45,458 nucleotides of DNA from Chitinophagales bacterium (GTDB lineage: Bacteria; Bacteroidota; Bacteroidia; Chitinophagales; CAIODY01), in contig CANFST010000020.1 in assembly GCA_947449695.1 (NCBI GenBank), positions 1-45,458 of the forward strand. Direction: 5' to 3'. Positions within the stretch are counted from its first letter, which is position 1, and every line of letters starts with the position of its first letter. The notes beneath the pieces were generated by a model, which saw nothing but the letters and a program-made list of their open reading frames with translations, made no database searches and was not told where the DNA came from. Positions 39,797 to 43,880 of this stretch are shown in pieces. The position numbers were made by a program, and so were the translations under genes.

Positions 39797-41008
39797 ATGA
39801 ATTTACACGAATATCAAGCTAAAGCTTTGTTGCAAAAGTTTAATGTACCTGTTCAGGAAGGCATTGCCTGCACTACTGTTGACGAAGCAGTTAATGCTTA
39901 TGCGCAAATCAGCAAAGAAACCAATTCGAAATTTGCAGTAGTAAAAGCGCAGATACATGCCGGGGGCAGAGGTAAAGGTAAAATAGTGGGTAGCGAACAA
40001 CGTGGGGTTCAGGTGGCTAAAAGCGCTGATGATGTAAAAACTATTGCAACCAATTTATTAGGTGGCACATTGGTAACTATTCAAACGGGCGAAGCAGGCA
40101 AAGTGGTGAATAAAATATTTGTGGCTAAAGATGCTTACTATAGCGGTGCTAGCGAAGTGAAAGAATTTTATTTAAGCATATTGTTAGACAGAGCTGAATC
40201 GAAAAATGTGATTATGTACAGCACCGAAGGTGGAATGGATATTGAAGAAGTGGCACATAATACACCCGAAAAAATATTTAAAGAGTGGGTTCAGCCTGGT
40301 GCTCAGTTAGCTGCCTTTCAGGCTCGTAAGATTGCTTTCAACCTGGGGTTGAGCGGCGATGCTTTCAAATCGTGTGTAAAATTTGTAACTAATTTATACA
40401 ACGCATTTGTTGGGTTAGATTGCTCTATGTTAGAAATTAATCCCTTGTTCAAAACTGCCGACGATAAAATAATAGCTGTTGATTGTAAAATGAATGTAGA
40501 TGATAATGCTTTAATTCGTCATCCGGATGTGGAAGCATTGAGAGATTTTGCTGAAGAAGATCCTACCGAAGTAGAAGCAGGAAAATTCAATTTGAATTTT
40601 GTGAAATTAGATGGCAATGTGGGCTGCATGGTAAATGGTGCAGGCTTGGCAATGGCTACTATGGATATGATTAAATTGAGCGGTGGCGAACCTGCTAACT
40701 TTTTAGATGTAGGCGGCACAGCCAATGCTACCACAGTAGAGGCTGGTTTCCGTATTATTTTAAGAGACCCTAATGTAAAAGCTATACTGGTAAATATATT
40801 TGGTGGTATTGTACGTTGCGACCGTGTGGCACAAGGTGTAGTAGATGCTTATAATAATATTGGCGAAATAAAAGTGCCTATCATAGTAAGATTACAAGGC
40901 ACCAATGCCGAAGCTGCTAAAGAACTGATTGAAAAATCAGGATTAAAAGTGGAATCAGCCATTCAGCTGGAAGAAGCTGCTACCTTAGTGAAGCAGGCTT
41001 TAAACTAA
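39797..41008 (+). CDS. sucC: Succinate-CoA ligase, ADP-forming, beta subunit
   Basis: Beta subunit of the citric-acid-cycle enzyme that makes ATP or GTP from succinyl-CoA. The ATP-grasp N-terminus reads NLHEYQAKALLQKFNVPVQEG, followed by KAQIHAGGRGKGKIVG and GLDCSMLEINPLF. The C-terminal ligase-CoA domain has MVNGAGLAMATMDMIKLSGGEPANFLDVGGTA and ILVNIFGGIVRCDRVAQG. 403 residues, full length. The alpha subunit gene sucD is not next to it: a terminator and tRNA-Arg follow, as is often seen in Bacteroidota, where the two genes can be separate. Confidence 0.97.
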   Translation: MNLHEYQAKALLQKFNVPVQEGIACTTVDEAVNAYAQISKETNSKFAVVKAQIHAGGRGKGKIVGSEQRGVQVAKSADDVKTIATNLLGGTLVTIQTGEAGKVVNKIFVAKDAYYSGASEVKEFYLSILLDRAESKNVIMYSTEGGMDIEEVAHNTPEKIFKEWVQPGAQLAAFQARKIAFNLGLSGDAFKSCVKFVTNLYNAFVGLDCSMLEINPLFKTADDKIIAVDCKMNVDDNALIRHPDVEALRDFAEEDPTEVEAGKFNLNFVKLDGNVGCMVNGAGLAMATMDMIKLSGGEPANFLDVGGTANATTVEAGFRIILRDPNVKAILVNIFGGIVRCDRVAQGVVDAYNNIGEIKVPIIVRLQGTNAEAAKELIEKSGLKVESAIQLEEAATLVKQALN

Positions 41009-41076: not shown

Positions 41077-41148
41077 GGTTTCGTAGTTCAATGGATAGAA
41101 TAGGAGTTTCCTAAACTTTTGATACCAGTTCGATTCTGGTCGAAACCA
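41077..41148 (+). tRNA. tRNA-Arg (CCT)
   Basis: Cloverleaf of 72 bases: acceptor GGTTTCG/CGAAACC, D arm GTTC/GAAT, anticodon stem GGAGT/ACTTT with loop TTCCTAA (anticodon CCT), variable TGAT, T arm ACCAG-TTCGATT-CTGGT. Discriminator A, CCA not encoded. The antisense strand of its 3' half forms the end of the serine recombinase gene, with the recombinase stop codon touching the anticodon (41111-41113). That arrangement marks it as the likely attachment site of the element on its right. Confidence 0.95.
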
Positions 41149-42670
41149 CTCCACGGGAAAGTACACCAAAATCGGAGTGCTTTTCTTTTTTAGAATTATT
41201 GAAAGCCTTACTCTTACTGCATATTAAGGCAACCACAGGTTCTACTTTTAGAGTTCGAACTTTTTGTTTATCAAAAATCAACTTTTCGGGAAAAATCGAA
41301 CTCAATATTCTTCTTTTAGTTGCTGTATCCCTTTGTTCATAATAGTTTTCGAGGTTTACAAGGAGTTCGACACAACCACTAATTTGTTTTTCAAGATTCA
41401 ATAATCCTTTGTTTAAAGAAGACAATTCTAAGGTTAATCTAGTGATTTTTTCTTCAATTTGATTTCGCATTTCTTTATATTCATTCGAAGTAAACTCACC
41501 ATCTAGCATCATGTCTTTTGCGTTAGCTAATCGCTGTTTTTGTTTTTGAATTTCTTTATTAATTATTTCAATTTCTACCTTACTGTTTTTATCTTTTTCT
41601 TTCAGTTTGTCCTTTAAGATGGCTGCAAAAAGATTCGCACTACTTGGGTTGACTTTAATTTTTTTGAGTAGTTGGATAAAGGATTCATTGACCACCTCGG
41701 CTTTCTGTCTTTCCTTGCAACCTTTTGAACAGTGATAATAAGAAAACAATGTTCCCATCATTCCTCTTGATTTAGAAGCTGTTAAAGTCTTGCCACATTG
41801 CGGACAGAGCAAAAATCCTCTCAAAGGAAATTCATCTCTGACAGTGGTAAATGAAGTAGGCATATTCTTCTTTCTGCCATCTAAAATATCTTGTACTTTG
41901 TAAAACGTTTCTTCATCAATAATTGCTTTGTGCTTTCCAGCTACCCATTCAGCAGGTTCTTGTTTGTAAGCTGGTACAAATATTTTTCCGATATAAACTT
42001 TGTTTCGGAGTAATGCCCAAAAACTATTTCGATTGCTAATTAAGCCTTGTTTATTTAGTTTGTACCGCAATTCTTCGATGTTGTAAGTCCCTGTTGCAAA
42101 TTCTCTAAATGCTGTTTTTACAAGTTGTTCTTTTTTCCCACCTTCAGGTGCAATAATTGGTCGATTATTTTCATCACGAGTATTCTTGTAACCTACAGGA
42201 CAACCACCGAGCCATCTGCCATCTTTTTTTGCCCTTCTGATGCCGTGAAAAATATTTAAAGCTCTGCGGTCATTATCAACTTCGGGTGCAGTTAAATAGA
42301 TTGCAAGCATCACTTTTTGTTCAGGAATTTCTAAGTCCAAAGGTTGTTCGGCAGCTCTTGCTTCCACTCCTAATTTTTTGAGTTTTGATAACTCTGCATA
42401 GGCTTCTGGTGCATTTCTTGAAAATCTATCCCACTTTAAAAAGTAGATGTAATCAACTGCTCCTTTATTATATCGAAGGAAGTTCATTATCTTCTTCCAT
42501 TCAGGTCGTTGAAATGATTTGCCACTTTCATCATCGTGGTAAAAACCTACCACATCAATGTTTAGGTTTTCGCAATAACGATAAAGTTTTTCCTTTTGGT
42601 CAGTAGGACTATAGCCATTGTTTTGTTCATCAGTGGAAACACGGGTGTATATAATTGCACGTTTCTTCAT
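41111..42670 (-). CDS. Large serine recombinase (integrase) with zinc ribbon and coiled coil
   Basis: 519 residues. The N-terminal resolvase domain begins KKRAIIYTRVSTDEQ, with catalytic Ser12, and continues FLKWDRFSRNAPEAYAEL and the LAIYLTAPEVDNDRRALNI helix. The recombinase domain has GRWLGGCPVGYKN, and the zinc ribbon CPQCGKTL ... HCSKGCKER. A coiled coil of about 80 residues (KEKDKNSKVEIEIINKEIQKQ ...) completes the large-serine-integrase plan. The last 13 residues (GVVSTRIELVSKV) and the TAG stop are encoded by the antisense strand of tRNA-Arg. The gene therefore runs into the target site, as expected when the element is integrated there. A 45-codon gene lies 26 bases upstream. Confidence 0.93.
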   Translation of the reverse strand: MKKRAIIYTRVSTDEQNNGYSPTDQKEKLYRYCENLNIDVVGFYHDDESGKSFQRPEWKKIMNFLRYNKGAVDYIYFLKWDRFSRNAPEAYAELSKLKKLGVEARAAEQPLDLEIPEQKVMLAIYLTAPEVDNDRRALNIFHGIRRAKKDGRWLGGCPVGYKNTRDENNRPIIAPEGGKKEQLVKTAFREFATGTYNIEELRYKLNKQGLISNRNSFWALLRNKVYIGKIFVPAYKQEPAEWVAGKHKAIIDEETFYKVQDILDGRKKNMPTSFTTVRDEFPLRGFLLCPQCGKTLTASKSRGMMGTLFSYYHCSKGCKERQKAEVVNESFIQLLKKIKVNPSSANLFAAILKDKLKEKDKNSKVEIEIINKEIQKQKQRLANAKDMMLDGEFTSNEYKEMRNQIEEKITRLTLELSSLNKGLLNLEKQISGCVELLVNLENYYEQRDTATKRRILSSIFPEKLIFDKQKVRTLKVEPVVALICSKSKAFNNSKKEKHSDFGVLSRGVVSTRIELVSKV

Positions 42671-42920: not shown

Positions 42921-43880
42921 TTAAATTCTCTTTCTGTTTTCTACATATAGAGTATTGTCATTTCTGTATTTTAATACGATTTGTTCATACTCTTTTAATC
43001 CAAGTATTTTTCGGAGTTCTTTTGCTTTTGCTCCATTTATTTCTTTGCTCAACTTTGCTTCAATTATTATTTCCTTTTCAATACCACCTTTCTTGATAAG
43101 AATTTCTTTATAGTCATTATTGCGCAGTGCCTCTATTACTTTCATCTCTTTAGGACTAATAAATCCCCACTCGAAAAGATTGTTTTCGTTTTTAGGATTC
43201 CCCATAAATTCTTCCACATAACCATTCAATGGAATATTAAAATGAGGTGCTGATAATTGCTCTAACAAATGTTCGGTTGTATTTTCAATCAATTCAGGAA
43301 TTGCAAAAGAACACATCATGGAATCTTCGGTTTGAGTTATTAAAATGGAAACCCTTTTATTCTTTAAAACAACTGTTGAAATTAGTGAACCCAATAAAGT
43401 TGTAAGATGTTTTTCTTCTGGTTCTAAAGAACTTGATACTTCCGTTAAATAGGCTGAAACGTTTTTTACTACTTCTTTATTTTCTTCAGATAAATGTTCA
43501 GTTGCCACAACAATTTCACCCTCTATTCCATCTATCGGCTGACCGCTTAGTAACTTAGCCATATCAGCTTCTAAATATGATTTGATATGCTTCATATTTT
43601 CAACCGACATCCCGAATGTTCGCATGGATTGTAACATCTTTACCCATACAAAATCATAGAGGTTTAAGCGAACCCATTCTCTCTTAACGTCTTTTTCCAC
43701 TTCTGTATATTCTCCTACTAAACCTTTAGACCGCCAATATAAATAGGCTTTAGTTCCTACTCCTGTTACATTTAATGCTGCTCTTCGCTCAGTTATTCTT
43801 GGATACAACAATTCTAATGAAGGCATTAGTCCAGTTTCCTGAATAATCTGAAGTCCTTTGTTGGAAGCATCTGAATTCAT
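42921..43880 (-). CDS. MerR-like helix-turn-helix protein of the mobile element
   Basis: 319 residues. Residues of about 32-110 resemble a MerR winged helix: TERRAALNVTGVGTKAYLYWRSKGLVGEY, then the R-x-x-L-x-D-F-V-W-V-K-M-L-Q-S-M-R-T-F-G-M-S-V-E-N-M-K block, where L-R-x-x-G-x-S-x-x-x-I/M-K is the MerR hallmark. The middle (about 120-220) is unassigned. The C-terminus (IIIEAKLSKEINGAKAKELR, KILGLKEYEQIVLKYRND) is an unknown alpha/beta domain. It is transcribed toward the recombinase, 86 bases before the 45-codon gene, and may control the element. No cysteines in a metal-sensing pattern. Assigned only from the HTH pattern. Confidence 0.65.
   Translation of the reverse strand: MNSDASNKGLQIIQETGLMPSLELLYPRITERRAALNVTGVGTKAYLYWRSKGLVGEYTEVEKDVKREWVRLNLYDFVWVKMLQSMRTFGMSVENMKHIKSYLEADMAKLLSGQPIDGIEGEIVVATEHLSEENKEVVKNVSAYLTEVSSSLEPEEKHLTTLLGSLISTVVLKNKRVSILITQTEDSMMCSFAIPELIENTTEHLLEQLSAPHFNIPLNGYVEEFMGNPKNENNLFEWGFISPKEMKVIEALRNNDYKEILIKKGGIEKEIIIEAKLSKEINGAKAKELRKILGLKEYEQIVLKYRNDNTLYVENRKRI

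Follow-up and report, generated by a model that had tools for sequence, protein, structure and literature searches.

The window, i.e., the whole stretch of 45,458 nucleotides that was analysed, represents the entire contig C20 of a 3.14-Mb Bacteroidota draft genome in 99 contigs. A gene for tRNA-Arg(CCU) was located on the plus strand (41077-41149; called by ARAGORN as tRNA-Arg(CCT)), downstream of a succinyl-CoA-ligase-type beta subunit gene (39797-41008). On the minus strand, an open reading frame with domain matches to large serine integrases (LSR), 519 amino acids in length (41111-42670), ended inside this host target gene. The antisense overlap covers 41111-41149, 39 nt that correspond to 12 sense codons (VVSTRIELVSKV) and a TAG stop codon. 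The initial annotation of this DNA had recognised the antisense codons and the TAG, only its count of 13 codons was one too high; rightly, it had the stop codon (41111-41113) touching the anticodon (41110-41112), as two bases are in common. The T-arm motif (A)GTTCGA of the tRNA is found at 41127-41133. Comparison of elements placed the crossover zone at the discriminator base A73 and at C74 (41148-41149), where the element DNA would start; this junction falls within the open reading frame, thus the att site was placed within the integrase gene, at its 3' end. The adjoining element arm (41150-41193, plus strand), delimited by a position profile and hairpin folding, presented a GGA at 41156-41158, a hairpin and a T-run. 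Further inside the integrase coding sequence lies an inverted repeat (41252-41302) with the left motif AGTTCGA at 41252-41258, 104 bp from the discriminator base (+104), and the right motif AAATCGAACT at 41293-41302 (+145).

The integrase matched the resolvase domain PF00239 (E 7.4e-22) and, above the Pfam cut-off, the Recombinase domain PF07508. The zinc ribbon PF13408 reached 23.2 bits, just under its cut-off of 25.3, with Cys pairs visible in the translation. The catalytic-domain motif YTRVSTDEQ was intact, and the PHROG integrase family phrog_95 was matched with an E-value of 2.5e-79. The resolvase, Recombinase and near-threshold zinc ribbon domains indicate a member of the large serine integrases, and together with the ARAGORN call they confirmed the earlier assignment of a serine integrase inserted at tRNA-Arg(CCU). 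The window holds about 4 kb of the element: the integrase, a gene for a 319-aa protein of unassigned family (42921-43880, minus strand) and a small open reading frame with weak HNH-type matches. For the 319-aa protein no match was obtained in Pfam, PADLOC, PHROG or NCBIfam. The contig end at 45458 falls inside the element, the right-hand end is therefore on another contig. By eye, the contig break (45279-45458) lies inside an apparent sensor histidine kinase gene of the element. A related element in genome G757 encodes, besides CTnDOT-type TraJ and TraM, a Fic protein and a further LSR; because of TraJ and TraM, at least some family members are regarded as ICEs.

An empty tRNA-Arg locus, the comparison suggested in the initial annotation, was available in the same genus: an unoccupied tRNA-Arg of genome G001 (L083) was 100 % identical to the window tRNA over the full length, and its sequence departs from the window directly 3' of CCAC. 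A further copy of tRNA-Arg(CCU) was not found elsewhere in the window's genome, so the occupied gene is the only copy found. The gene order around tRNA-Arg varies within the genus, and the empty counterpart of the window locus was not identifiable from it. In another same-genus draft, a contig break is located in the variable loop of tRNA-Arg(CCU) (G002:C226:1-50, L084), possibly caused by an element that some members of the population carry. In the window's own genome G000, no fewer than three other LSR genes run antisense into tRNA genes, for Met, Val and Ser(UGA); they are located at C41:6073-7620 (L037), C1:135443-136963 (L045) and C2:46998-48458 (L051). Downstream of tRNA-Lys(UUU), five genomes listed under one genus (L234, L235, L237, L238, L239) all carried different genes, including by eye restriction- and AAA-type proteins. 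This region is an integration hot spot, and since every genome differs there, synteny at tRNA-Lys did not lead to attR. All of the listed tRNA genes for Lys and Arg that were unoccupied (L234-L259) encode A73-C74, mostly without the final CA of CCA.

Relatives of the window integrase, defined at E <= 1e-60, were present in 63 of 395 genomes of the class and in 53 of 398 genomes of the order; over all samplings, matches occurred in roughly 10-16 % of the genomes. The 3' end of a called tRNA or tmRNA was overlapped by 71 of the 91 family genes examined, and all 71 overlaps were antisense. The same arrangement in so many relatives is far beyond chance. The initial annotation had called the pairing of a serine integrase with a tRNA gene unusual; in agreement, the literature describes it as rare (PMC3218068), but within this LSR family the antisense overlap with the t(m)RNA 3' end is the rule and not a one-off. 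The 20 genes without a called t(m)RNA comprised contig ends, a frameshifted gene, inner members of LSR pairs, apparently missed tRNAs and non-tRNA junctions. Sixty-six distinct family junctions involved tRNAs for Arg, Met, Lys, Leu, Glu, Asn, Ala, Val, Pro and Phe as well as tmRNA, and a single reading frame was common to all 66 and to 8 distant junctions. More distant LSRs in the same genomes (22-29 % identity) likewise overlapped a t(m)RNA in 8 of 18 cases. In a sister LSR group (L276-L288, about 31-39 % identity), several genes stop 200-450 bp short of the tRNA. In a tree built from 90 genes, 53 changes of target label were required, the minimum being 20, which reveals frequent target switching. 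A pattern search of viral contigs yielded no relative of the integrase, and among the best matches listed from phage and plasmid records were only distant LSRs with less than 30 % identity. Loci fetched after the rules had been set, other classes of the phylum included, served as held-out set: 14 of 18 overlapped a t(m)RNA, all 14 antisense and 12 of these in the expected frame.

Junctions were profiled by counting positions from the discriminator base as 0 (41148 in the window) on the raw sequence; as no alignment step was involved, the register is free of insertions and deletions. On the tRNA side, the T-arm GGTTCGA occupied positions -21 to -15, followed by A or G at 0, C at +1 and usually A at +5. 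C74 was invariant in the 66 distinct junctions, and A73 was present in 63 and replaced by G in three. The arm side showed GGA at +8 to +10, then a hairpin and finally, at +39 to +43, a T-run, the positions of GGA and T-run being ungapped. Compared to shuffled sequence, the arm hairpin had a z below -2 in 73 of 74 arms. With this strong fold and the T's at its end the arm resembles an intrinsic terminator that would serve the tRNA. Its sequence tracks the clade of the integrase rather than the target. The initial ~45 bp of the element double as junction arm, putative tRNA terminator hairpin and integrase codons. Paired LSR genes about 3.3 kb apart in one ICE were seen in L191-L194; the junction motifs were kept in the tRNA-side copy and lost in the inner copy.

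We consider it likely, for the explanation as a whole, that the window presents the attL of an element inserted by the LSR behind tRNA-Arg(CCU), with a junction at A73-C74, recognition of the T-arm and a host-encoded integrase tail. The LSR would insert the element immediately behind the tRNA, and the window would contain its tRNA-side end. The T-arm heptamer GGTTCGA, present in nearly all tRNAs and in tmRNA, would form one half of attB at 14 bp from the crossover, while a GGTTCGA copy at 19 bp from the crossover would be the matching half of attP. The arm entering behind the tRNA would fold as a new terminator and every tRNA base would be kept, and for these two reasons the function of the target would be preserved. 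The integrase gene runs across the junction; its tail would therefore be encoded by the host once the element is integrated, and would necessarily be a different one in the circle or with a new target.

Related elements at different targets allowed a comparison of tails. The G757 element, located at a tRNA-Arg-TCT, is 96.7-96.8 % identical to the G742 element at a non-tRNA site and 82-86 % identical to the G433 and G704 elements at tRNA-Lys. Across G757, G742 and G433/G704 three integrase tails were observed, ...GLEPRTHTLKVYCSTN, ...GFEPMTYSLEGCRSIQLSYRTKWAQK and ...NPLVRFSNTIIFQFRKIAALKRVA. These differing tails on closely related elements are direct sequence evidence that the flanking DNA sets the integrase tail, as the initial annotation had claimed for the C-terminus; that the tail would also differ in the circle follows by extension from this attL comparison. 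The tails comprise about 10 to 87 residues, and both their length and their sequence vary freely. In the window integrase the C-terminal end is predicted to be disordered, based on the low confidence of residues 474-519, the only feature used, and cautiously, of an AlphaFold model that was poor overall (mean pLDDT 59.5). According to the initial annotation, integrase activity could change between the integrated and the free state; in view of its variable length and the predicted disorder, however, the tail may simply be tolerated.

The internal repeat was conserved. GGTTCGA occurs again inside the integrase gene at +104 to +110, with +104 as the best position in 79 of 81 sequences, and an inverted partner ATATCGAACC is located at +145 in 73 of 81. 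The Arg codon in the left motif was CGA in 78 of 81 sequences, in comparison to 13 % of the Arg codons in the same genes. The 34 residues between left motif and tRNA had a mean pairwise identity of 25 % and a length that hardly ever varied. In the inner LSR of the G433/G704/G742/G757 element, the Arg-Thr residues are kept and the motif is absent. CGA bias, fixed spacing and the loss in the inner paralogue therefore place the constraint at the DNA level and tie it to the junction. The most distant tRNA-overlapping LSRs kept the left motif and had no partner. Among the held-out loci the left motif was best placed at +104 in 12 of 14. Of the exceptions, L304 had a degenerate motif; in L305 the entire repeat lies closer by 11 bp, roughly a helical turn, with a corresponding change of reading frame. 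This shift would suit a helical rather than a codon constraint. It is possible, if somewhat doubtful, that the overlap arises passively from the element end and that both tail and internal repeat are without function. The free variation and predicted disorder of the tail agree with such a passive origin, yet the conservation of the repeat on the DNA, its fixed spacing despite 25 % protein identity and its loss in the inner paralogue do not. At least the repeat is thus not passive, even if the tail may be. The repeat was also considered as attP itself and rejected, as it is intact in integrated copies, and truncated LSRs checked for a split at the repeat centre revealed none. As its most likely function we tentatively propose that GGTTCGA...ATATCGAACC is a putative accessory integrase-binding site: the att site would be read mainly on the T-arm side, and a helically phased second dimer could aid or direct recombination. 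To our knowledge, serine integrases are not known to need such an accessory internal site.

The predicted recognition of the T-arm by the inserting LSR was followed at targets within and outside tRNA genes. The tRNA targets read GGTTCGA-N14 before the crossover. Non-tRNA junctions were of two kinds, the first with a longer spacing: GGTTCGA-N19-AC in G050 and G091, and GTTCGA-N19-AC in G742. The N19 junction of G050 is located 53 kb from a tRNA-Arg(CCG), at the end of a tandem element behind that tRNA. A newer element should sit between the tRNA and the older element, thus the inner junction of a tandem should show the attP half of the newer element. For serine integrases, an offset of the zinc-domain motif by 5 bp between attP and attB has been described (Rutherford et al., PMC3783163). 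GGTTCGA would accordingly correspond to the zinc-domain motif, an analogy that fits the 5-bp shift at three N19 sites only. A mirrored GGTTCGA was not present in the element-side half, so that attP is not the usual symmetric site.

The second kind consisted of four other non-tRNA junctions in which the spacing is N14 and a tRNA 5' half is lacking (L016, L017, L203 and the first element of G091), for which broken tRNA genes are the simplest reading, secondary sites being the other. Since L016, L017 and L203 keep a tRNA-like 3' end from exactly GGTTCGA on, they could also speak for a crossover in the T-loop with GGTTCGA as core, where the tRNA 3' end would belong to the element, as it does in classic tyrosine-integrase islands. 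We regard this as unlikely. The elements of L017 and L018 share 97.4 % identity over 3386 bp, and this identity ends at AC; on the far side of AC, L018 has tmRNA and L017 a different T-arm-like sequence, and the stretches between GGTTCGA and AC are not alike. With identity only from AC on, this pair led us to reject the T-loop crossover. G757 and G742 behaved likewise apart from GG and T just before AC: divergence begins 1-2 bp from the AC point, the base two positions before A73 differs, and GG and T agree, hence this pair by itself may also allow a crossover a few bases upstream. For G433/G704 divergence starts at or within a few bases of AC. Furthermore, a second copy of the tRNA 3' end was not found within 80 kb in complete genomes of relatives. 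Unoccupied sites retain the same tRNA end. From a crossover at A73-C74 it follows that the tRNA would be entirely host DNA and the tail past the junction host-encoded. The att site, which the initial annotation had spread over 41105-41148, would consequently be confined to the last tRNA bases. A second copy of part of 41105-41148, proposed there as a test, was then the wrong test: only few bases are shared, and a long duplication was neither expected nor found in relatives. Neither attR nor an excised circle was found for the window's element, which the contig end cuts off, or for any relative in the fetched DNA. A 27-kb right boundary common to G757/G742 and G433/G704 was considered as attR and rejected, as it more likely lies inside a larger ICE. 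That the serine integrase is only resident or decayed and another, tyrosine integrase placed the element is very improbable: tRNA 3' ends are classic tyrosine-integrase targets and the far end of the window's element lies beyond the contig, but every overlapping LSR gene itself spans the junction, always in antisense, and its frame and DNA motifs keep register with the crossover, the motif YTRVSTDEQ is intact, and no recognisable tyrosine integrase was present among the tested open reading frames of the incomplete window element.

LSR-mediated insertion behind t(m)RNAs shares single traits with known systems. Streptococcal ICEs in rumA also have the att site within the serine integrase gene and exchange its C-terminus on integration, with direct repeats of 2-21 bp (PMC4701971); in contrast, their target is a protein gene that is altered, whereas here the t(m)RNA stays intact, and fixed frame, terminator arm and internal repeat are found only here. 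Serine recombinases in tRNA genes are described as rare in PMC3218068, which cites Mycobacterium AICEs in tRNA-Leu and the filamentous phage phiRSM1 in tRNA-Ser, the latter at the 3' end. Those are described there as rare single-target cases, while the present family is phylum-wide, uses at least ten amino-acid types of tRNA and tmRNA, and follows the antisense rule. The integrases of LI/A118, Bxb1 and phiC31 agree in domain order and in the 5-bp attP/attB motif shift proposed here, but have symmetric compact att sites, and their model includes no internal repeat ~100 bp away (PMC3783163). The tRNA sites listed for Mycobacterium abscessus belong to tyrosine integrases (PMC10654092), as does the 10K island in tRNA-Arg of Riemerella (PMC6764341). 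Unlike in tyrosine-integrase tRNA islands, the gene adjoining the tRNA is here an LSR, and the long direct repeat of the tRNA 3' end is absent from the relatives' fetched DNA. TraJ and TraM homologues in a relative's element are shared with CTnDOT-type conjugative transposons; CTnDOT uses a tyrosine integrase, unlike this LSR family. In the open-access papers searched, we came across neither the internal repeat nor a serine-integrase family specialised on t(m)RNA 3' ends. LSRs in tRNA genes, as rare cases, and C-terminus exchange, in rumA ICEs, are already known; what appears to be new is an LSR family of this architecture with t(m)RNA 3' ends as its dedicated targets.

Owing to the short junction, such elements would escape island finders that rely on repeats. 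The integrases offer themselves for placing cargo behind a Bacteroidota tRNA without harming the tRNA, and the system lends itself to a direct test for the control of a serine integrase by an internal DNA site. The T-arm is common to nearly all tRNAs, which makes target switching easy. The working rule that tRNA genes are the territory of tyrosine integrases is overturned, as one LSR family of the Bacteroidota targets t(m)RNA 3' ends.
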